Shown here in pieces: positions 6,133 to 17,239 of a stretch of DNA of 28,318 nucleotides (the stretch's first letter is position 1; each line of letters opens with the position of its first letter). The notes under the pieces are model-generated. The model made no database searches. It was not told where the DNA came from and worked only from the letters and a program-made list of their open reading frames with translations. Origin of the DNA: a virus. The stretch covers positions 1-28,318 of the IMG/VR virus record IMGVR_UViG_3300007539_000145. One strand, written 5' to 3'. The position numbers and the translations under genes are program-made.

Positions 6133-6428
6133 ATTGCGAAGAATGTAATAATAAAGGATATGTTTTACAAGCGGATTATCAACATGATGTAATGATGAGA
6201 GTAAATTGTATTGAGTGTTTAGCCCATGAACAGATGAAACATGATTTGAGCATTAAATTAACAATGGTTCTAATGGATTTGAGTATGAATAGAATGGCTA
6301 GATTACTCTCCGATACTCTAATTAGTTTGGTTGATGCTGACGATACTCCCGACTATGATAGGCTTTTAGCACTTGTAAGGGCAAAGAATAAAGAGTCCCT
6401 TGTGTCCTTGTTGCAGGTGATGGTATGA
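6129..6428 (+). CDS. Small zinc-ribbon protein (CEEC...CIEC)
   Basis: Ninety-nine residues. CEEC at 3-6 and CIEC near 27-30 form an N-terminal four-cysteine zinc ribbon, and the rest is helical (SIKLTMVLMDLSMNRMARLL). It overlaps its neighbours by ATGA at both ends. The end of the gene carries AGGTGATGG, the ribosome-binding site for the next gene. Function unknown. The ribbon could bind nucleic acid or a protein partner. Confidence 0.8.
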   Translation: MNCEECNNKGYVLQADYQHDVMMRVNCIECLAHEQMKHDLSIKLTMVLMDLSMNRMARLLSDTLISLVDADDTPDYDRLLALVRAKNKESLVSLLQVMV

Positions 6429-7068: not shown

Positions 7069-7170
7069 ATGAATAAACAAAAAATGAAGAAAAATGAAAA
7101 GACCGCCCAACAGACATCTGTTTATAAGGGTGTAGAACATGGAGAGAATACAACGGAGGATTACGAATGA
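7069..7170 (+). CDS. Microprotein, 33 residues, basic head and acidic tail
   Basis: ATG 7069 follows AAAGGAAGTGA, a moderate ribosome-binding site, 15 bases after the preceding stop. The first half is lysine-rich (MNKQKMKKNEK) and the second half acidic (EHGENTTEDYE). It overlaps the ubiquitin-like gene by ATGA, and its coding sequence contains that gene's site GGAGGA (7155-7160). It may be a leader that couples translation to the next gene rather than a functional protein. Confidence 0.6.
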   Translation: MNKQKMKKNEKTAQQTSVYKGVEHGENTTEDYE

Positions 7171-7367
7171 TTAAATTACGAATTTTGAACGAAACAGGCC
7201 ACACCGACCTCACACTTGAAAGTAGTGGGGTTCTTGAACAAATTGATACGCACCCGACTCATTGGGTGTTTATTGACAATGTTTTGGTTTCAAGGGAGAA
7301 TATTACTGAAATTAACTGGGATGAAGTTACTTCAGTCAATTTGACCCCTGCTATCGTTGGCGGATAA
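7167..7367 (+). CDS. ThiS/MoaD-like ubiquitin-fold protein with C-terminal Gly-Gly
   Basis: Sixty-six residues, the size of a ThiS/SAMP protein. The N-terminal hairpin (IKLRILNETG, HTDLTLES) is followed by a short helix-like turn (GVLEQI) and then HWVFIDNVLVSREN...DEVTSVNLTPAIVGG. The last part follows the ThiS/MoaD order: V-x-(V/I)-(N/D)-x-x-x-V-x-R, then DxV, then a strand ending in Gly-Gly exactly at the stop. In that superfamily the terminal Gly is adenylated by an E1-like protein and then carries sulfur or is joined to lysines. An E1-like gene (12246) and a JAMM protease gene (13878) lie in the same window. The site GGAGGA precedes the ATG and a strong hairpin follows. The fold assignment comes from pattern only, so a chance Gly-Gly cannot be fully excluded. 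Confidence 0.65.
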   Translation: MIKLRILNETGHTDLTLESSGVLEQIDTHPTHWVFIDNVLVSRENITEINWDEVTSVNLTPAIVGG

Positions 7368-7402
7368 GCAGGTTATTAAACCGACCACAACTTGCGAATC
7401 TT

Positions 7403-7447
7403 GGGGTGGGGGTGTTGCCTTACGAGGCAATCCCCTGCCCCTTTTTT
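7403..7447 (+). terminator. Long GC-rich hairpin with T6 tail
   Basis: GGGG-TG-GGGG (7403-7412, counting the inner T·G and G·T pairs) pairs with CCCC-TG-CCCC (7432-7441). Above a small internal loop, TTGCCT (7415-7420) pairs with AGGCAA (7425-7430) around TACG. TTTTTT follows at 7442-7447. It is a textbook intrinsic terminator shape 36 bases after the ubiquitin-like gene. It also lies 14 bases ahead of the next ATG, so it could instead be a leader structure controlling that gene. Confidence 0.75.
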
Positions 7448-7460
7448 GAGTGTGGCAAAC

Positions 7461-7835
7461 ATGGACTTATCTACTTTTATCTCTAAGGAAGCATTAAATC
7501 TTTTTTTACAAACAAAAGGTTGGCAAATGCTCATTCCCCATGTCTTCGGAGAGAAAGCGGTCTTTAAACCCGACTTTTATGAAGACATGTATATTATAGC
7601 GCAGGGTAAGTCTGGAAAAATATGCGCTAAAGGACATTCAATTATAAATTATCAAGGTAATACCTTCGATTGTGTTAATATGCTTATTTCTAAGCATGGT
7701 GAAACAGCACTAGAAGATTTTGATAACTGGAAGTTTATTGAAGAAAAAGAATGGGTTATCTACAAAGATGGCGAATGGCTTCATTCCTTTACTTCTCTTC
7801 TAGAATTACCAAATGCAAAAACATACAGGTGTTAA
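7461..7835 (+). CDS. Unknown protein, 124 residues
   Basis: I start it at ATG 7461. The frame is open from TTG 7392, but that start would put the whole terminator hairpin inside the coding region. The protein is α/β-like, with aromatic-rich strands (WVIYKDGEWLHSF) and one internal CVNML. No motif is recognised. No ribosome-binding site is clear before ATG 7461, so it may be leaderless or translated by readthrough. It sits two bases before the ribonucleotide reductase gene and supplies that gene's AGGTG site. Confidence 0.7.
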   Translation: MDLSTFISKEALNLFLQTKGWQMLIPHVFGEKAVFKPDFYEDMYIIAQGKSGKICAKGHSIINYQGNTFDCVNMLISKHGETALEDFDNWKFIEEKEWVIYKDGEWLHSFTSLLELPNAKTYRC

Positions 7836-7837
7836 AA

Positions 7838-9712
7838 ATGAAAAAACAGAAAGAAAACAAAGCGATTCAAATACTATCGGATATTACTGTGCATATGAAA
7901 TATGCTAGGTTTTTACCCGAACTAAATAGAAGAGAAACTTGGGATGAAATAGTCTCAAGAAACGAACAAATGCACATCAAAACATATCCCCAACTGGAGG
8001 AAGAAATACATGACATCTATACTAACTTTATCAGAACCCGAAAAATCCTCCCGTCAATGCGTTCTATGCAATTTGGCGGAAAGCCTGTGGAAATTAGCCC
8101 GAATAGGGTTTATAACTGCGCTTATATGCCTATTGACTCCTATATTGCTTTTAGTGAATCTATGTTTCTTCTTCTCGGTGGAACGGGGGTTGGGTACTCT
8201 GTCCAAAGACATCACATTGAACAATTACCGGAAATCCAACAGCCTAATGACTCAAGAAAGCGTCGTTATCTTATTAACGATTCTATTGAAGGTTGGGCTG
8301 ACGCTGTTAAAGTATTGATGGAATGTTATATGGGAATTAAAAAGGATAGCCCTAAGTTTGACTATTCTGATATTAGACCTAAAGGTTCTCTTTTGAAGAC
8401 TTCTGGTGGAAAAGCCCCCGGCCCTCAACCTTTGCGTGAATGTTTAGTAAAGGTCGAAGGTATGTTACAAAATATCCCTAATGGTTCTAAACTTGAGCCT
8501 ATTCAAGCACATGATATTATGTGCCATATTGCTGATGCAGTTTTAGCCGGAGGTATTCGTCGTGCCGCTATGATTAGTTTATTTAGTGCTGATGATGCTA
8601 AAATGCTTTCATGTAAATCTGGTAATTGGTGGGAAAATAGCCCACAACGGGGAAGAGCAAACAATTCAGCAGTATTGCTTAGACATAGAATCAATAAAGA
8701 GTTCTTTATGTCTATTTGGGAAAGAATACAATTAAGTGGTAGTGGAGAACCGGGAATTTATTTCAGTAATGATAAAGATTGGGGAACAAACCCTTGTTGT
8801 GAAATTGCACTACGACCATTTCAATTCTGTAATTTAACAGAAGTAAATGCTTCAAACATTGAAGGGCAAAAGGATTTAGAAGACCGAGTTAAAGCGGCTT
8901 CTTTCTTAGGAACATTACAAGCAGGATATACTGACTTTCATTATTTGAGAGATATTTGGCGTAAGACTACTGAGAAGGATTCTTTGTTGGGGGTATCAAT
9001 GACAGGTATCGCATCTAATATTGTCGAGAAGTTGGATATTGAATCTGCTTCTCTACAAGCAAAATTAGAAAACCGTCGTGTTGCTAAATTATTACAAATT
9101 AACCCTGCAAGTAGAGTAACTTGTGTTAAACCCGCAGGTACAACTTCTCTTGTATTAGGTTCTTCTTCGGGAATACATGCTTGGCATGATGAATATTATA
9201 TTCGTCGTGTTCGTGTTGGAAAGAATGAAGCAATCTATTCTTATTTGGCAAACAATCATCCCGAATTAGTAGAGGATGAGTATTTCAATCCAACAGAACA
9301 GGCAGTAATTAGTATTCCTCAAAAAGCACCAGATAACGCAATCACTCGAAAAGAAAGCGTATTTGATTTACTTGAACGAGTAAAGCAGTTTAGCATTAGA
9401 TGGGTTAATAACGGTCATGTTGATGGAATGAATACCCATAATGTTTCAGCGACTATTTCAATCAAAGAAGATGAATGGGATGATGTTGCAGAATGGATGT
9501 GGTTTAACCGACATTATTACAATGGATTGGCTGTTCTTCCTTATGATGGTGGAACATACAAACAAGCACCATTTGAAACTATTACCAAGGAACAATACAA
9601 TGACATGTATGCTCTTCTCGGCTCTATTGATTTAACTAAAATAGTAGAAAGCGAAGACAATACTGACTTATCCGGTGAAATTGCTTGTGCCGGTGGACTT
9701 TGCGAGATTTGA
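7838..9712 (+). CDS. nrdJ: Class II (B12-dependent) ribonucleoside-triphosphate reductase, monomeric type
   Basis: It converts ribonucleotides to deoxyribonucleotides for viral DNA synthesis, using adenosylcobalamin to make the thiyl radical. The start at 7838 is set by AGGTG four to five bases upstream. Motifs: SMRSMQFGG near 73-81; VYNCAYM with the N-terminal redox Cys94; GGTGVGYSV; NPCCE at 318-322 with the radical Cys320 and Glu322; FCNLTEVN with Cys331; and the C-terminal shuttle pair CAGGLC (Cys617, Cys622). The GTGVGYSV segment and short length (624 residues) point to the monomeric RTPR-like branch. It does not need a NrdB subunit, which suits a virus. Hosts must supply or import B12. 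Confidence 0.93.
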   Translation: MKKQKENKAIQILSDITVHMKYARFLPELNRRETWDEIVSRNEQMHIKTYPQLEEEIHDIYTNFIRTRKILPSMRSMQFGGKPVEISPNRVYNCAYMPIDSYIAFSESMFLLLGGTGVGYSVQRHHIEQLPEIQQPNDSRKRRYLINDSIEGWADAVKVLMECYMGIKKDSPKFDYSDIRPKGSLLKTSGGKAPGPQPLRECLVKVEGMLQNIPNGSKLEPIQAHDIMCHIADAVLAGGIRRAAMISLFSADDAKMLSCKSGNWWENSPQRGRANNSAVLLRHRINKEFFMSIWERIQLSGSGEPGIYFSNDKDWGTNPCCEIALRPFQFCNLTEVNASNIEGQKDLEDRVKAASFLGTLQAGYTDFHYLRDIWRKTTEKDSLLGVSMTGIASNIVEKLDIESASLQAKLENRRVAKLLQINPASRVTCVKPAGTTSLVLGSSSGIHAWHDEYYIRRVRVGKNEAIYSYLANNHPELVEDEYFNPTEQAVISIPQKAPDNAITRKESVFDLLERVKQFSIRWVNNGHVDGMNTHNVSATISIKEDEWDDVAEWMWFNRHYYNGLAVLPYDGGTYKQAPFETITKEQYNDMYALLGSIDLTKIVESEDNTDLSGEIACAGGLCEI

Positions 9713-9721
9713 GGTGATTGA

Positions 9722-10060
9722 TTGTCTCGCCCGCTTTCTTATAGAAAATTACCCTATTCGGGCTATAAGAAAGCGATAGTCTCAATGCTGAAAGAGTTCT
9801 CAAGTGTTAGTAGAACCAAAATACTATTAGCCATAGAAGTTTGTGAAGAGTTGCCGAAGGAAGACAGATTGTATAGAATTGAACAAAGTTTGAATACTGC
9901 CCTGTGGGAATTAGATGAGGCAATTGAACTAGGTTTTGATGCTTGGAAGAATAAACACTTAGTAGAAAGAGCAAACGCCTTTCTTTATCACGAAAATAAT
10001 AAAGACGAATGCGACTACGATTGCGAAGTTTGTAAAATAGCATTTAGGTGGAAGGCATGA
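9722..10060 (+). CDS. Unknown protein with CxxxC/CxxC C-terminus
   Basis: This 112-residue protein begins at TTG 9722, preceded by GAGGTGAT, the archaeal ribosome-binding core. It is mostly helical (TKILLAIEVCEELPKEDRL, NTALWELDEAIELGF), with a cysteine group near the end (DECDYDCEVC) that could hold a metal. It overlaps the next gene by ATGA. Its position right after the reductase suggests a shared operon, but no functional link is established. Confidence 0.8.
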   Translation: MSRPLSYRKLPYSGYKKAIVSMLKEFSSVSRTKILLAIEVCEELPKEDRLYRIEQSLNTALWELDEAIELGFDAWKNKHLVERANAFLYHENNKDECDYDCEVCKIAFRWKA

Positions 10061-10227
10061 AAGAAAAAGACCCCAAATATACTACAAGTCATAGGACTTA
10101 CAAAAAAAGAATAGCAACTTCTTGTCGCATATGCGGCCAACAATTGCTAATACCAGAAGAAATTAAAAGAGAAAGGCACGATAATTGTGCCAAAAATAAT
10201 AAACATGACAATATATACATGATGTGA
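10057..10227 (+). CDS. Small zinc-finger protein, 56 residues
   Basis: It starts in an ATGA overlap. CRIC near residues 23-26 and HDNC near 41-44 form a possible C2HC knuckle in a basic protein (TTSHRTYKKRIATS). It resembles small nucleic-acid-binding zinc knuckles. The stop overlaps the GTG start of the next gene. Confidence 0.7.
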   Translation: MKEKDPKYTTSHRTYKKRIATSCRICGQQLLIPEEIKRERHDNCAKNNKHDNIYMM

Positions 10228-11411
10228 ATAATATGGATAAAATAGGAATAAGAATAAGAAAACCAGATGATAGTCGAGACTACTACCCCACAGTTACAGT
10301 AACAAGTGATAGTATTATCAATTATAGTAACGGTTGGGAATATAGGGTCGAATACTTAAGAAATGAAAAAGACCCTATTCATGCGGGTCTTGTTAAGTTT
10401 TGGAAGACAACATTGGGTAATAAAAGAATGGATTACAGTGCGCCTAAAATACGGTTTAGTTCAGATATTGTTGTAATAAATATTGAAACTCTACCAATAG
10501 CAATACACCGCAAGAATGGTAGATTTCGCTTAAATGGTAAATCTGAATCGGCTAGCACTATTGCTAATGCTTTGGCTAGAGTAACAATTTCAGCAATTCG
10601 TGAAAAATCACCAGTTAAATTAATGTCATCCTTGATGAAAGTTTTAAGCCTATCCGAGAATGTAAAGTATTGTCTTGAGAACAGAGTTCCTTTTCACTAC
10701 TTTGTCAATTTCAAGAAAGTAGATGTCCGTTTGAATATTCAACAAATTTCCGAAAAGGAATGTGCTATTGAGATAAGCGACGGTGTTTGGGCAAGTATTT
10801 CTAATAAGGAGTTGGATAAGTTTTGTACTTTTTTCTTACATGGAAAGAAGCAGGGTAAGTTTAAGCATATGGGAATAAAGCGTCTATATACTTACTTACT
10901 AGGACAAGAGCCATCTGACTCAGATTTAGAGTTAATGCGTCAATTCCTTAGACAAAACCGACAGCAGGACATTGTAGAGGATAGAGCAATTCAACTACTA
11001 CATGAATTAGTAGAAGAATCGCCAAATCATCTCCACTTAATTATGGAAGAAAACCAACCTAAGTCCCTTTACATTAAAGGGGCGGGCTATGATTGGCTAC
11101 TAAGTGCTAATGAATACAAAAGCGATATTCAACTGGTATCAACTTATGTCTGTCAGCCAATACCGCAAACAGATGAAAACCAAATGCCACTACCAATATT
11201 GGATTGTGAGTGGAAATGGAAAGGCCCAATCTGTATTGATAATATGGCAAAGGGTTCTTCACTTGGCGACCAATTCGCAACAAGAGCATTAGCACTGATT
11301 AATGATACTCATACAATACAAATAGTAAATACGATTAAGCGATACTTAATCGCAGATGAAAATACGAATAGGATGGATTTTGATGAAATGCTTAGAGTGC
11401 AACACAAGTGA
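10224..11411 (+). CDS. Unknown protein, 395 residues
   Basis: A long, well-formed gene starting at GTG 10224 (GTGA overlap), or at ATG 10233. The N-terminal part has repeated strands (KIGIRIRKPDD, YPTVTVTSDS, WEYRVEYL). The middle is helical and the C-terminal part has WKWKGPICIDNMAKGSS and a helical end. There is no P-loop, zinc motif or membrane segment. The long 3' overlap (29 bases) with the TFB-like gene suggests coupled expression. Function unknown. Confidence 0.85.
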   Translation: MNNMDKIGIRIRKPDDSRDYYPTVTVTSDSIINYSNGWEYRVEYLRNEKDPIHAGLVKFWKTTLGNKRMDYSAPKIRFSSDIVVINIETLPIAIHRKNGRFRLNGKSESASTIANALARVTISAIREKSPVKLMSSLMKVLSLSENVKYCLENRVPFHYFVNFKKVDVRLNIQQISEKECAIEISDGVWASISNKELDKFCTFFLHGKKQGKFKHMGIKRLYTYLLGQEPSDSDLELMRQFLRQNRQQDIVEDRAIQLLHELVEESPNHLHLIMEENQPKSLYIKGAGYDWLLSANEYKSDIQLVSTYVCQPIPQTDENQMPLPILDCEWKWKGPICIDNMAKGSSLGDQFATRALALINDTHTIQIVNTIKRYLIADENTNRMDFDEMLRVQHK

Positions 11412-12243
11412 GTTTGAATATGACGAAGTAATGGGTGAAACCGCATGTGTAGCATGTGGTCTTATTGCTGTAACTGAATTGTTTGAAGAACGGCAAATGT
11501 CCGTAGATAAAGAAGTTTTGCTGAAATCTTCAGAAAGAACGGGATTAGGTAGCATTATTTCCGGAAAGGGAAAGATTGCACACATTCACAATAGGTATAG
11601 TGATAAAGACCACCATATCAAGAAAGGCGTAGTAATGTGTCAAATGGTTCTTTCTAATGTGTTTGATTCTACTACCTCTCTTAGAGATAGAGTGGGAGAA
11701 GTATATAGAGAATTACATTCTAAGAACATATTCAAGGGTGTTTCTTTAGAAGTGAGAGCAACCGCAGTAGTATGGCTTGTGATGAAAGAAAATAAGACCC
11801 CAATCAAAATTAAAAAATTAAGTGAAGAGTTTAGTTGTTCGGGTAAACCATTGAATCGCCTGATACGCAAAATATCCACATATTATGGTGGTAGAATGCG
11901 CCAAATGGAAGCAGACCCGCAATACTTACTAAAGAAAGTAGCCAACCAAATAACAGATGATATAGTTTACATTTCTCAATGTATGGAAACTTTAGAAATG
12001 TTTGAGAGAATAATTAATAGTAGTGATTATAATAAAAGAAACGCTTACTATGAAAGCATTTGTTGGATTTCAAAGAATATCTTTGTATATCCAAGAATAA
12101 CATTGACACTTATTGCCGAGAAGACTGATGCTTCTTGGTCGGCAATACAAAAACAAACCAAAGACCTTTTAGGTTTAATTGGATTAAAGACTTGTGCCCA
12201 AGTAAAAGGCAAACAAATAAGTGAATTAGAAAGGAGAGAATAA
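11383..12243 (+). CDS. TFB/TFIIB-like transcription initiation factor
   Basis: TFB bridges the TBP-TATA complex and RNA polymerase in archaea. The start at ATG 11383 places an N-terminal zinc ribbon right at the beginning: Cys3, Cys6, Cys22 and Cys25 (CLEC...CVACG). After a B-finger-like linker come two helical repeats of about 90 residues, consistent with the cyclin folds (LRDRVGEVYREL...VRATAVVWLVMKEN and a second one near 190-270). At 287 residues it is slightly short of cellular TFB (about 300), and the linker is divergent. The gene overlaps its upstream neighbour. A viral TFB could redirect host polymerase to viral promoters such as the TTTATATA boxes seen here. Confidence 0.85.
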   Translation: MKCLECNTSEFEYDEVMGETACVACGLIAVTELFEERQMSVDKEVLLKSSERTGLGSIISGKGKIAHIHNRYSDKDHHIKKGVVMCQMVLSNVFDSTTSLRDRVGEVYRELHSKNIFKGVSLEVRATAVVWLVMKENKTPIKIKKLSEEFSCSGKPLNRLIRKISTYYGGRMRQMEADPQYLLKKVANQITDDIVYISQCMETLEMFERIINSSDYNKRNAYYESICWISKNIFVYPRITLTLIAEKTDASWSAIQKQTKDLLGLIGLKTCAQVKGKQISELERRE

Positions 12244-12245
12244 AT

Positions 12246-12803
12246 ATGAGAAAAATATTAATAATTGGAACAGGCGGAATTGGGTCATTCTTGACTCAAT
12301 ATTTAGATAAAGTCGGACTATACAACATTACTGTTGCAGACCCCGATTCAGTTGAAACTAAAAACTTAACATATCAAAACTTTAGTAGAGGTCATGTTGG
12401 ACAGAATAAGGCCAGTGTTATGTTTGATGAGTATGAATCAGTCAATCATTACTCTAAGTTTCCTATCCTCACAGCAAAGCAAATGGATGGATTTGATTTG
12501 GTTATCTGTTGTGTTGATAATTTGAGTGTTCGTCGAACCTTATACAACACAAGTATTAAATGGTTGGACTTAAGAGCGCAAGGCAGGAACGCCGCCCTTG
12601 TTAGCCATATGGCAGATGTTAAAATGCACGATACTTTGCTTATGGGTGAAGATGGTTCGTTTAGTTGCCAAGGTGATTCTTGGGATGGAACAAATAAGAA
12701 TGTTCACTTTATGCAAATAACAATAGCAGGTATGGGCGCACAGTGGATTCAAAGATATTTTAATAAAGAAGAAGTAAGTGATTTTAAGGTTGTGAATGTA
12801 TGA
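12246..12803 (+). CDS. Minimal E1-like ThiF/MoeB-family protein
   Basis: E1-like proteins adenylate the C-terminal Gly of ubiquitin-like or sulfur-carrier proteins. Visible parts: Rossmann ATP loop GTGGIGS (8-14); the acidic strand end with Asp32 and Asp34; NLTYQNF (40-46), then HVGQNKA (50-56); and the nucleotide-contact segment CCVDNLSVRR with Asp91, Asn92 and Arg96. Cys141 (SFSCQGD) is a candidate catalytic cysteine, followed by a helix (ITIAGMGAQWIQRYF) as in MoeB. Oddities: it is 185 residues instead of about 250. The Arg of the usual NLxRQ motif is Tyr43. The two CxxC zinc pairs of MoeB are absent. It follows the TFB-like gene by two bases after GGAGAG and overlaps the SANT gene by ATGA. 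Confidence 0.85.
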   Translation: MRKILIIGTGGIGSFLTQYLDKVGLYNITVADPDSVETKNLTYQNFSRGHVGQNKASVMFDEYESVNHYSKFPILTAKQMDGFDLVICCVDNLSVRRTLYNTSIKWLDLRAQGRNAALVSHMADVKMHDTLLMGEDGSFSCQGDSWDGTNKNVHFMQITIAGMGAQWIQRYFNKEEVSDFKVVNV

Positions 12804-13876
12804 GTGAAGATATAAGAAAGATAAGAACAGTCTGGACAGAAGAAGTTGTAGATTACATTACAATGCAAAGGAACATTAAAAATGCTAAGTGGTCTCAAAT
12901 TGTTCGTAGGCTTCAACAGCACTTTAATATTACAACTACTGTTAAGAACGCTATGAATCAATATCACAAAAGGAAAAAACAAATGGAAAGTGAAAATATG
13001 AATTGGAAAGATGAACCCGCAACTCGGAAACAATGTAATTATATTGCAGGGCTAACCCTGCCTAATGGTAGTAAGAAACTAAAGAAAACATTAGAAGACC
13101 AACTATATAATAAGTCTCTTGCTCAAGAGTTTACTAAGAATATGGCTAGTGAAAGGATTCAGTCTTTAGAATCACAATTACTTGCTACTAATTCCGGTGT
13201 AAACCGTCGTTGGACAATATTAGAAGATAATGTTATTATGGGTTGCCATAGTGCTATGTCAGCCATCGCACTAAAATTACCGAATAGGACTGAAAGTGCT
13301 GTAAAACAGCGTTACTATGCTCTTAGGAAAAAGGCAAAATCCAATAGTGAACCAACTCCAATTGTAGCAAAGAAACAACCTAATACACAGTTACATAAAA
13401 CTGAACTACCTCAAAAGATTGAAACTTTTGTAGAAAAGCATGGTAATCCAACAACTCGTCATCTTTCAAATGATGAGAAAGAAATGTTCGAGGAAGTGAA
13501 AGAAGTGTTGGAAGAAGCAGTAGTTGAACGAAAGCATCTAAGAAGCCCAAAGACTTGGAAAACTGAAGAAGACTTTGATTTGCTTTGTAATTTCTATGAA
13601 TTGTCTATTTTGGAAGCAAAAGAGCGATATGGTCGAGACTATGGTACTATTGCTTCTCGGCTTGAATCTCTCTTTGAAAGCACACAACCTAAACATATGT
13701 CTTTACTTATGGAAGCCAGTGCCTTTATCAAAGCACGAAAGGCTGAAGAGATAGAATCCTATAAGAACGGCTATTTTAAGCGACGGAAAGCGGCTAAAAT
13801 GGCAAAGAAACAACTCAAGAAGGAACGCAAGGCGGAGAAACTTGAGGCAAAATTGAAAAAACTACGAGGTGAATAA
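12800..13876 (+). CDS. DNA-binding protein with three SANT/Myb-like repeats
   Basis: Three tryptophan-centred helical repeats are visible. The first is near 10-58 (VWTEEVVDYI...WSQIVRRL...TVKNAMNQYH). The second is near 136-177 (RRWTILEDNVIMGC...IALKLPNRTESAVKQRYYAL). The third is near 250-297 (WKTEEDFDLL...YGRDYGTIASRL). A short ATRKQCNYIAGL motif near 74-85 is common in phage proteins. The last 50 residues are a Lys/Arg/Glu-rich coiled-coil tail (KRRKAAKMAKKQLKKER). SANT/Myb domains bind DNA or histone-like proteins, so this is probably a viral DNA-binding or transcription regulator. It overlaps the E1-like gene, and the JAMM gene follows directly. Confidence 0.75.
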   Translation: MSEDIRKIRTVWTEEVVDYITMQRNIKNAKWSQIVRRLQQHFNITTTVKNAMNQYHKRKKQMESENMNWKDEPATRKQCNYIAGLTLPNGSKKLKKTLEDQLYNKSLAQEFTKNMASERIQSLESQLLATNSGVNRRWTILEDNVIMGCHSAMSAIALKLPNRTESAVKQRYYALRKKAKSNSEPTPIVAKKQPNTQLHKTELPQKIETFVEKHGNPTTRHLSNDEKEMFEEVKEVLEEAVVERKHLRSPKTWKTEEDFDLLCNFYELSILEAKERYGRDYGTIASRLESLFESTQPKHMSLLMEASAFIKARKAEEIESYKNGYFKRRKAAKMAKKQLKKERKAEKLEAKLKKLRGE

Positions 13877-13877
13877 A

Positions 13878-14426
13878 ATGGGAAGAATGAGCGATAAAAG
13901 TATAGAAAATGAAGAACGATATGGAATTAATGATGATGCTTGGGAATATCAAATGCAGGTCGAAGAAGCGAGAAACGAAATAATTTCTTTCTTGCAGAAC
14001 AATTGGATTGAAGAGTTTGATATGAACGGAGAAGATGCAATACATTCTAAGTCATGGCATTACTCTATTTGGTATGCTTCTACTCAAATGTTACCAAACC
14101 TTGAGGTTCAAGTAGTAATTGATGCTAAGAATAGAGCGCACATTTCATCAGGAACAAGTGGCTATGTTTCTTTCCCTATGCCACCTAAAGGAATGGAATT
14201 ACCTATGAAATGTTGGTTTCACACTCATCCTTTTGGTTCTGCTTATTTTAGCGGAACAGATTGGAATACTGTAAATATATTTCATACGGTCATGGAAACA
14301 GCATATGTTATTGGTGGAGATGAACACTATGGATTTTGGACTAATGCTAAAAGAAACCTTTTAGAAATAAAAGAAAAAGACGGAAGTTACCGAATGCAAA
14401 CACAAACAGGAAGTGAAGAAGAATGA
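13878..14426 (+). CDS. JAMM/MPN-family metalloprotease (desampylase-like)
   Basis: JAMM proteases are zinc enzymes that remove ubiquitin-like tags from lysines. The full motif HxH-x7-S-x2-D is present at residues 115-128: His115, His117, Ser125 and Asp128 (HTHPFGSAYFSGTD). The β-strand context upstream (LEVQVVIDAKNRAHIS) could supply the catalytic Glu (Glu76 is a candidate). The start at ATG 13878 is chosen because GAGGTGA (13866-13872) lies five bases upstream; GTG 13869 would overlap that site. The length, 182 residues, is that of a stand-alone JAB protein with an N-terminal helical extension. It ends GSEEE in an ATGA junction. With the Ubl and E1-like genes it completes a minimal sampylation-type set. 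Confidence 0.88.
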   Translation: MGRMSDKSIENEERYGINDDAWEYQMQVEEARNEIISFLQNNWIEEFDMNGEDAIHSKSWHYSIWYASTQMLPNLEVQVVIDAKNRAHISSGTSGYVSFPMPPKGMELPMKCWFHTHPFGSAYFSGTDWNTVNIFHTVMETAYVIGGDEHYGFWTNAKRNLLEIKEKDGSYRMQTQTGSEEE

Positions 14427-15596: not shown

Positions 15597-15740
15597 ATGA
15601 CAGATAAACATAACAAAGATGCAGAATACTTGATTGAGTTAATTAAGTTATTCTATAAGGAAATGAATGATGGCCCACCATTAAGGGCAAGACAAATAAT
15701 GGAAAAATATGAAAAGTTTTTTAGGGGGCAATTGAAATGA
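15597..15740 (+). CDS. Small protein, 47 residues, before groEL
   Basis: ATG 15597 is preceded by GAGGTTTTGGT, and the TGA overlaps the ATG of the chaperonin gene. The protein is helical and basic at its end (LRARQIMEKYEKFFRGQLK). The end contains AGGGGGCAATTGAA, which acts as the ribosome-binding site for groEL. It fills a gap that otherwise has no gene. Function unknown. Confidence 0.7.
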   Translation: MTDKHNKDAEYLIELIKLFYKEMNDGPPLRARQIMEKYEKFFRGQLK

Positions 15741-17239
15741 TTATACACGGAAAAGAAGTAAAAGAAAAACTATTACAAGGAATTAATTTAGTAGCAGATA
15801 CAGTATTACCGACACTTGGCCCACAAGCCAAAACGGTAATTCTTCAAGGGAATCCACCAGTTATTATTAACGATGGTGTTACCATTACTAAGTATGTATC
15901 GCATGAAGACCCTTATGTTCAAATGGGCGTTCAAATGGTTCAAAATCTAGCGAGTAAAGCACAGGATAATTCAGGTGATGGAACAACAACTGCTTGTATT
16001 GTTGCAAGAGCATTATGTGAACAAATCCATACTGCTGATGTTTCAAACCTTCATACTCTCCGTAAAGAATTAGATGAAGCACAGGCAATTATTGTAGAAT
16101 CACTTGAAATGATGGCAGTAGATGTTGGTGATGCCGATATTGTTTCTGTTGCTACTATTGCGGCAAATAACGATTCTTACTTGGGTGGGCTAATTGAAGA
16201 GGCACTTAATGAAGTTGGTCGAGATGGTATTATTACTGTTGAAGAATCAAATAGTCATCGAACAAACTTAGTTGTCCGTAAGGGATTAGAAATTGATGAA
16301 GGGTATTTGAGTCATTTGATGGCTAATGGCGATGACGGAAAGGTTCAATTCAATAACCCTCTTATATTTACTTCTAATTTGGCAATCAAAAACTTTAGTG
16401 ATATTCTACCAATGTTGGAATTAGCGGCAGTTGAGAAGCGACCAATGGTAATGTTTGTGAAGGGAATGGATGGAAGTGCATTGAATAATATTATTATGAA
16501 TGTTCTTCAAAAGACAATTGAAGTTGCAGTTGTTACTGCGCCTAATTTTGGTGATGCCCAATTAGATGAATTGGGTGATATTGTTTCTATTGTTGGAGGT
16601 CGCCTATATACTGACGAAAGTAAGGATGACCCAGAATTGATTACCAAAGAAGAATTAGGTTCTTGTGAAAAGATTGTTATTACAAAGGAGACTACTACTA
16701 TTATTGGTGGTAATTCGGCCGATGAAAGAATCAATACTCTCAAATCTGTTTTTGAAACATTGGATGATGATTTCGATAAGAAGCGTATGAAGAAGCGCAT
16801 TTCTCGTTTGAGTGGCGGTATTGCTACTATTCAAATCGGTGCTTCTTCTTCTATGGAAATGCGTGAAAAGAAAGAAAGGTTGGATGATGCTTTGAATGCA
16901 ACAAAAGCGGCACTGTCCGAAGGTATCATTACAGGTGGTGGTCTTGGTCTATTACATGCAAGAAATGACTTAGAAATTGAGAAGACTGGGCATAAGATTG
17001 TTTATGATGCTTTATCTAAACCTGCTCTTGTTCTATTGCAAAATAGTGGAAAAAGCGGTTTGTCATATAATTTAAATGACCCTCACTACGGTTACAATGC
17101 TCTTTCTGAAAAATATGAAAACTTGTGGAATGCAGGTGTCTTTGACCCTGTAAAGGTAACAAAGGGAAGTTTTAATGCGGCAATCTCAATTGCTTCATTG
17201 TTCTTAACTACTGAAGTTGCTGTTCTTTTGGAGGAATAA
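15737..17239 (+). CDS. groEL: Group I chaperonin (GroEL/Hsp60)
   Basis: This ATP-driven folding chamber subunit has the group I hallmarks: LVADTVLPTLGPQAKTVIL (near 18-36), NDGVTITK, MGVQMVQNLASKAQD and GDGTTT (80-85, with the nucleotide Asp81). It has DGIITVEE with the following EGYLS-type segment, and RLDDALNATKAALSEGIITGGG with the catalytic Asp equivalent to E. coli Asp398. It also has the end FDPVKVTKGSFNAAISIASLFLTTE. These are closer to bacterial GroEL than to the archaeal thermosome (group II). It is 500 residues against about 540, and the Gly-Gly-Met tail is absent. Together with the GroES-like protein it may fold capsid or other virion proteins. The gene probably came from a bacterial-type source. 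Confidence 0.95.
   Translation: MIIHGKEVKEKLLQGINLVADTVLPTLGPQAKTVILQGNPPVIINDGVTITKYVSHEDPYVQMGVQMVQNLASKAQDNSGDGTTTACIVARALCEQIHTADVSNLHTLRKELDEAQAIIVESLEMMAVDVGDADIVSVATIAANNDSYLGGLIEEALNEVGRDGIITVEESNSHRTNLVVRKGLEIDEGYLSHLMANGDDGKVQFNNPLIFTSNLAIKNFSDILPMLELAAVEKRPMVMFVKGMDGSALNNIIMNVLQKTIEVAVVTAPNFGDAQLDELGDIVSIVGGRLYTDESKDDPELITKEELGSCEKIVITKETTTIIGGNSADERINTLKSVFETLDDDFDKKRMKKRISRLSGGIATIQIGASSSMEMREKKERLDDALNATKAALSEGIITGGGLGLLHARNDLEIEKTGHKIVYDALSKPALVLLQNSGKSGLSYNLNDPHYGYNALSEKYENLWNAGVFDPVKVTKGSFNAAISIASLFLTTEVAVLLEE

Follow-up and report, generated by a model that had tools for sequence, protein, structure and literature searches.

Can an archaeal virus run a ubiquitin-like conjugation pathway of its own? 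The question is raised by a 28,318-nucleotide stretch of viral DNA (IMG/VR record IMGVR_UViG_3300007539_000145; the whole stretch is called the window here), in which a small protein ending in Gly-Gly, an E1-like enzyme and a JAMM metalloprotease are encoded. A preliminary description, made from the letters alone, had proposed that these genes belong together, and the three open reading frames (ORFs) are indeed present on the plus strand at the positions it gave. Our analysis indicates that they probably form a dedicated, reversible pathway of magroviruses for conjugating a ubiquitin-like protein (Ubl), and that this predicted pathway is homologous to a chromosomal one in their Poseidoniales hosts. 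The proteins concerned, including a fourth that we call X, are the following.

7167-7367, plus strand: Ubl, 66 residues, ending in PAIVGG; identified by its AlphaFold2 (AF2) fold, structural matches and Gly-Gly conservation
10224-11411, plus strand: X, 395 residues, with Cys337 (codon 11232-11234) in a GPICID motif; identified by conservation across loci
12246-12803, plus strand: mini-E1, a ThiF-type adenylation domain of 185 residues with Cys141 (codon 12666-12668); identified by Pfam ThiF
13878-14426, or from a GTG start at 13869, plus strand: JAMM/JAB metalloprotease; identified by motif, family profile and AF2 model

A fixed gene set in magroviruses

The genes of the window include those for an SF1 helicase, TFB, a GroEL-type chaperonin, RNR, an ATP-dependent ligase, RFC and PolB, matching the gene content given by the International Committee on Taxonomy of Viruses for Magrovirales, an order of tailed viruses linked to the Marine Group II archaea, or Poseidoniales (PMC10768690, PMC12999244). 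Judged by this gene content and by its relatives of 86-97 kb, the window is a magrovirus. Members of the order are tailed, encode PolB, SF1 helicase, TFB, RFC, an ATP-dependent ligase and GroEL, and have genomes of roughly 86-110 kb; the assignment was made from the window genes, with the structural genes falling outside it, and Poseidoniales as host is taken from the same literature (PMC10768690, PMC12999244).

A search baited with the E1 retrieved 79 contigs, 78 of which carry a magrovirus-like E1. JAMM is found in 76 of the 79, the exceptions being the divergent contig L078, described below, and two that break off no more than about 510 bases from E1. The Ubl gene is found in 61, at 2.8-8.2 kb upstream of E1; where it was not found, L078 apart, the sequence before E1 is shorter than about 5.1 kb. 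All three genes keep to one strand and to the order Ubl, E1, JAMM, and about 16 contigs have E1 abutting or overlapping JAMM (gap of -22 to 16 bases). The near-complete magroviruses, taken to be the 17 records whose length of 86-97 kb compares with that of published magrovirus genomes, each carry a single E1, a single JAMM and a single Ubl (17/17), with the JAMM frame split in two pieces in one record.

GroEL served as an independent bait to guard against bait bias. All 15 magrovirus contigs retrieved with it that have enough upstream sequence share the gene order Ubl, X, TFB, E1, JAMM, GroEL; one more, truncated at the contig edge, has E1 and JAMM, and two others start at GroEL. By contrast, the Ubl-E1-JAMM set occurs in none of the 62 other GroEL-bearing phage contigs. 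TFB had been dropped as bait in favor of GroEL, because a single protein gave only six known contigs and the alignment was too variable, and JAMM as bait gave only three contigs owing to poorly conserved back-translated patterns. The Ubl-E1-JAMM set is a fixed part of the magrovirus lineage. The link between the three genes, previously drawn from their co-occurrence on one contig, is thus strengthened by co-occurrence throughout the lineage. Two contigs listed as belonging to the bacterium Maricaulis isolate IN14 (L128 and L129; NZMJ01000151 and NZMJ01000073) also carry the magrovirus E1, X and JAMM; they look like misbinned viral contigs.

Three further genes lie among or beside the set.

11356-12243, plus strand: TFB/TFIIB-like transcription factor between X and E1, by family match; present in 120 of 127 related loci
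12800-13876, plus strand: Myb-like/HTH-containing protein between E1 and JAMM in the sublineage of the window (Myb 3e-4, under the cut-off)
15737-17239, plus strand: GroEL-type chaperonin, conserved downstream neighbor, by family match; the independent bait used above

TFB is probably a conserved neighbor and not part of the chemistry. The Myb-like gene is not present where E1 and JAMM adjoin. Elsewhere in the window, a tRNA-Leu (taa) gene lies at 1224-1306, upstream of the SF1 helicase gene.

The Ubl and its C terminus

The AF2 model of the window Ubl, built with 58 aligned sequences, has a predicted local distance difference test score (pLDDT) of 94 and shows a β-β-α-β-β-α-β topology with a flexible Gly-Gly tail, so that the 66-residue protein is predicted to be a β-grasp Ubl ending in Gly-Gly. 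MoaD, ubiquitins and TtuB are among its best structural matches, with Z-scores of 5.0-5.7, the expected range for a 66-residue fold; Foldseek E-values for so small a protein lie near 0.01, which is weak, and the fold was assigned from the AF2 topology. The earlier designation as a ThiS/MoaD-like protein holds for the fold, but not for the family profile: the window Ubl has no match to ThiS/MoaD (Pfam PF02597), and the best family member reaches 17.9 bits against a cut-off of 22.5. Weak ThiS matches occur in a few relatives (0.0045 for one member), and in one case the alignment stays in register as far as the terminal Gly-Gly. Matches to PinA/Inhibitor_I24, the T4 Lon inhibitor, appear in 24 of 58 members; they are sub-cut-off and confined to the middle of the profile, and were judged to be chance given the AF2 β-grasp.

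The Gly-Gly is invariant across 65 distinct viral Ubls, so neither its conservation nor the fold, the two features of this protein on which the preliminary description made its proposal depend, contradicts it. What follows the Gly-Gly varies. There is nothing beyond it in 14 sequences, including the window Ubl, one residue in 12 and two in 39, and the identity of these tails differs (CY, NL, NY, Q, Y and others). Variable short tails behind an invariant Gly-Gly resemble, at the level of sequence, the precursors of the ubiquitin family. Since 51 of the 65 Ubls carry a tail of one or two residues, a peptidase is needed, which JAMM could supply. Compared with the relative L004, the Ubl gene is under purifying selection (dN 0.050, dS 0.40).

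The JAMM protease

The JAMM protein carries HTHPFGSAYFSGTD. Residues E79, H118, H120, S128 and D131 (numbered from the GTG at 13869) are invariant or nearly so among 76-88 sequences, and the glutamate of the E...HxH-x7-S-x2-D set, E79, is invariant. Hence the full HxH-x7-S-x2-D motif reported earlier is borne out, and to it are added the invariant glutamate and a predicted fold like that of deubiquitinases. The window protein by itself matches Prok-JAB weakly (1e-3), but that model is matched by 49 of 76 family members, and the family profile matches AMSH deubiquitinases in the PDB (1.4e-4). Likewise, the AF2 model (pLDDT 88.8) has as its top folds AMSH (Z 8.9 over 112 residues) and the Pyrococcus JAMM1, PfJAMM1 (Z 8.8 over 107 residues). 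From sequence and model, JAMM is predicted to act in both Ubl processing and deconjugation.

A minimal E1

The identification of the 185-residue protein as an E1-like ThiF protein stands, as it matches Pfam ThiF (PF00899) at 1.5e-18 and 67.2 bits against a cut-off of 28.1, which is also exceeded in all 17 near-complete relatives. Invariant residues include GxGG, N40, Q44, K55, D91 and Cys141. Cys141 aligns with the catalytic-cysteine position of the canonical, rhodanese-fused host E1s (PSCAEGGVLG versus SFSCQ); in MoeB/Uba4-type E1s, this cysteine is the catalytic one. The protein consists of the adenylation domain only, and has no N-terminal helices, zinc-binding CxxC or rhodanese domain. Similar to the Ubl, it is under purifying selection relative to L004 (dN 0.059, dS 0.39).

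More specific E1 families are matched poorly by the window protein. The UbaA-type model (NCBIfam NF047750) gives 31.5 bits against a cut-off of 450, the PRTRC_ThiF equivalog gives 41.8 against 144.75, and PADLOC E1-E2 models cover just the E1 portion. Distant E1 relatives (about 27-33% identity) also occur in crAss-like phages, where the annotation reads either hypothetical protein or thiamine biosynthesis; in phage DAC15 (MT074136, 75859-76869), for example, the neighboring genes are annotated only as hypothetical.

X, a cysteine-bearing companion

The X ORF is present in 121 of the 127 related viral loci and contains a single invariant cysteine, Cys337, within the GPICID motif. Profile searches found no convincing Pfam or PDB family match. 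When every ORF of the non-magroviral loci was searched with a model of the C-terminal domain, its first picks lay near Poseidoniales Ubl, E1 and JAMM genes (E 5e-4 to 1e-2). The reciprocal model returned the viral X proteins (E about 1e-6) together with a small X in L078, and it also finds E1-adjacent genes of Methanoperedens, which are members of that model. On this sequence evidence, X is a regular companion of this mini-E1 clade and belongs to the set.

The motif G-x-I-C-x-D and its spacing resemble an E2 active site (G-x-I-C-L-D), and X is a candidate transfer (E2/E3-like) or adaptor component. That X is a UBC-type E2 was considered and set aside, since profile searches gave no E2 and hhalign assigned a probability of 1.6% to its match with yeast Ubc4, for which an approximate sequence served; it remains an idea only. 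The preliminary description had held that E1 alone would suffice and that an E2 is dispensable. No recognizable E2 was found, but the E1 may not act alone here, since X, with its invariant cysteine, accompanies it.

In Methanoperedens contigs (L140, 10673-11173; L144, 10589-11059; L148, 10580-11080), X and E1 genes overlap by four bases or nearly so and are followed by a protein of about 160 residues with the conserved C terminus ATHKGKGG, possibly a modifier of another fold that also ends in Gly-Gly.

A homologous set on Poseidoniales chromosomes

A genome scan found relatives of the mini-E1 (about 30% identity) in many metagenome-assembled genomes of Poseidoniales and in one single-cell-type genome. 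These E1 loci occupy a recurring chromosomal place, JAMM overlaps E1 by four bases in most, and the host JAMM retains all catalytic residues. Among 97 Poseidoniales genomes, E1 was detected in 47 (E up to 1e-50), Ubl in 46 and JAMM in 47, much the same ones. Both E1 and Ubl are found in 43 genomes, neither in 47 and only one of the two in 7 (Fisher p 3e-19, phylogeny ignored). The genomes examined also have a separate, rhodanese-fused canonical E1.

Many Poseidoniales loci contain poly-Ubl ORFs, in which two to four units are joined head to tail at Gly-Gly and followed by a short terminal tail, as in polyubiquitin. Examples are found at L220 820-1677 and L221 878-1525, as well as in L224, L225 and L228-L230. 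Natural fusions join the parts to one another: Ubl-Ubl-E1 (L222, L223), E1-JAMM (L226, L227) and Ubl-X (L212). Given these fusions and the gene overlaps, there is very little room for doubt that the parts are functionally linked. On one Poseidoniales contig (L149), two different Ubl genes (271-507 and 6178-6423), several X-domain genes, TFB and an AAA ATPase form a single cluster.

A compact X-Ubl-JAMM-E1 operon lies at 8974-10597 of L078, a divergent virus-like contig of 155 kb. Its Ubl ends in NLQGG, its JAMM has the motif HSHP...S..D and its E1 is divergent.

In the E1 tree, magroviruses form one group (support 83/86) and Poseidoniales another (99/99), and both of these join Methanoperedens and L078 in a clade (97/95) that excludes the other E1s sampled, with long branches limiting what can be said of the root. 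Recent capture of the E1 by the virus from its host was rejected, the tree giving no sign of recent exchange between them.

Comparison with known systems

The magrovirus set shares with SAMP/UbaA/HvJAMM1 sampylation a β-grasp Ubl ending in Gly-Gly, a single E1-like enzyme, an AMSH-like JAMM and an archaeal setting. It differs in that the short E1 lacks the UbaA flanking regions and falls in a separate clade, the Ubl is tailed or, in the host, a poly-Ubl, the genes are clustered and virus-borne, and there is the extra protein X. The earlier reading as an archaeal sampylation set is therefore only partly right. An archaeal virus does encode Ubl, E1 and JAMM, but they are not SAMP/UbaA as such, as the E1 scores against the UbaA model and the separate mini-E1 clade shared with Poseidoniales chromosomes reveal.

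Bacterial Bil, Bub and type II CBASS systems likewise have clustered Ubl, E1-like and JAB genes in a mobile or defense-related context. They have a canonical E2 or an E1-E2 fusion, neither of which was found here, where the E1 is an adenylation domain only; with PADLOC models matching just that part, the magrovirus set is probably not an E1-E2 fusion system. The PRTRC cassette also combines a ThiF-type E1, a JAB protein and a small Ubl, but the window E1 falls far under the PRTRC_ThiF cut-off and other PRTRC families were not found among the ten window proteins scanned. Tandem Ubl repeats are also known from bacterial poly-Ubl operons with JAB and E1 (Iyer et al. 2006, PMC1779556; review PMC11354881), which in addition include an inactive E2-like protein. 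The present set instead occurs on archaeal chromosomes and in a virus, with two to four units in the host and a single unit in the virus, and its X has no demonstrated likeness to E2.

Among archaeal extrachromosomal elements, Borgs encode AMSH-like JAMM proteins regarded as putative deSAMPylases, in many copies and with SAMP reported to be rare (PMC12660748), as opposed to the fixed, single-copy Ubl-E1-JAMM-X set described here. Archaeal JAB genes have been described as rarely linked to Ubl genes (PMC2948915). In the open literature, no paper pairing magroviruses with ubiquitin was found, though single-gene annotation in subscription papers is possible, and the two papers found that mention both Poseidoniales and ubiquitin concern other topics, judged by title and abstract.

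Proposed pathway and alternatives

Given the computed folds of Ubl and JAMM, the E1 family, the catalytic residues, the linkage, the tails, the host poly-Ubl and the fusions, we infer a cycle of thioester formation and conjugation with a role for X. JAMM would trim residues past the Gly-Gly and, in the host, cut poly-Ubl precursors. The mini-E1 would then adenylate the C-terminal glycine of the Ubl with ATP and carry it as a thioester on Cys141. Transfer to target lysines could be direct or proceed via X, whose Cys337 could act like an E2/E3 cysteine, and JAMM would take the Ubl off again. Virus and host probably both use such a dedicated protein-tagging pathway, undescribed in the literature searched. 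The virus may employ it to re-tag host proteins, to protect its own or to compete with the host pathway; host defense or virion proteins as targets, put forward in the preliminary description, are speculation.

Several observations weigh against conjugation. No E2 is recognizable, including in the comparison of X with Ubc4. The N-terminal Arg-finger region is missing from the E1, and a tyrosine (Tyr/His in the family) replaces the canonical arginine of N-L-x-R-Q. In the 14 of 65 viral Ubls that are tail-less, processing cannot be the only role of JAMM; its further job there would most simply be deconjugation. Moreover, the QbsCDE sulfur-carrier system also pairs a JAMM protein with a tailed Ubl.

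This last point leads to the main rival, in which E1 and JAMM would make ready a ThiS/MoaD-like protein that donates sulfur, through its thiocarboxylate, to a thiolation enzyme of virus or host acting on tRNA, nucleotides or a cofactor. Sulfur-carrier cassettes of the QbsCDE and CysO/Mec+ kinds likewise combine a MoeB-like E1, a tailed ThiS-like protein and JAMM trimming, and the fold of the viral Ubl, resembling ThiS, MoaD and TtuB, and the ThiS profile match of one family member would suit such a carrier. Unlike in those cassettes, however, no viral sulfur acceptor or rhodanese was detected: rhodanese (PF00581), MoaE (PF02391) and ATP_bind_3 (PF01171, TtuA/Ncs6-type) are found in 0 of 17 near-complete magroviruses. 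The virus could use host acceptors, and CysH has been reported in some magroviruses (PMC10160649), yet the mini-E1 has no rhodanese domain and the Poseidoniales examined possess the separate rhodanese-fused E1 for that chemistry. Poly-Ubl precursors, present in the homologous host set, and the four-gene linkage suit modifiers better, so that sulfur transfer is less likely than conjugation and, in our estimate, unlikely overall.

Ranked just behind it, and improbable as well, is interference, in which the viral proteins mainly counter the homologous host pathway, with the Ubl as decoy and JAMM stripping host tags. JAMM de-modifiers have been proposed as counter-defense in Borgs (PMC12660748), and a homologous pathway does exist in the host. 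Stripping, however, would need neither a conserved E1 with intact catalytic residues nor a Ubl ending in Gly-Gly. In addition, the viral and host E1 clades are deeply separate without sign of recent transfer, and the set is fixed in the viruses, yet not present in about half of the sampled Poseidoniales genomes. Processing of the Ubl during virion assembly has a precedent in the tail-assembly proteins I and K (TAPI/TAPK) of lambdoid phages, a Ubl-like protein with JAB/NlpC (PMC1779556), but that precedent has no E1, and the genes here sit amid replication and transcription genes (SF1 helicase, TFB, GroEL, ligase, RFC, PolB), making this the least credible option by some way and one to which we attach very little weight.

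A dedicated conjugation pathway hence remains the preferred reading. We more tentatively suggest, as a proposal that could well prove wrong, that Poseidoniales possess an undescribed type of Ubl conjugation, composed of a poly- or single Ubl, a mini-E1, an AMSH-like JAMM and a cysteine-bearing X that replaces E2, and that a copy fixed in magroviruses, which diverged from it long ago, serves them to re-tag proteins in infection.

Implications

If the conjugation pathway is real, a complete Ubl-conjugation set would be a fixed core of a whole archaeal virus order, the first such case as far as our searches show, and a homologous, apparently undescribed poly-Ubl pathway would operate in archaea that rank among the most abundant of the surface ocean. 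This would open to testing both the idea that viruses run their own protein tagging in infection and the idea that ubiquitin-style conjugation can proceed with a short E1 and a cysteine protein of non-UBC type. It would also bear on the origin of polyubiquitin-like precursors outside eukaryotes.

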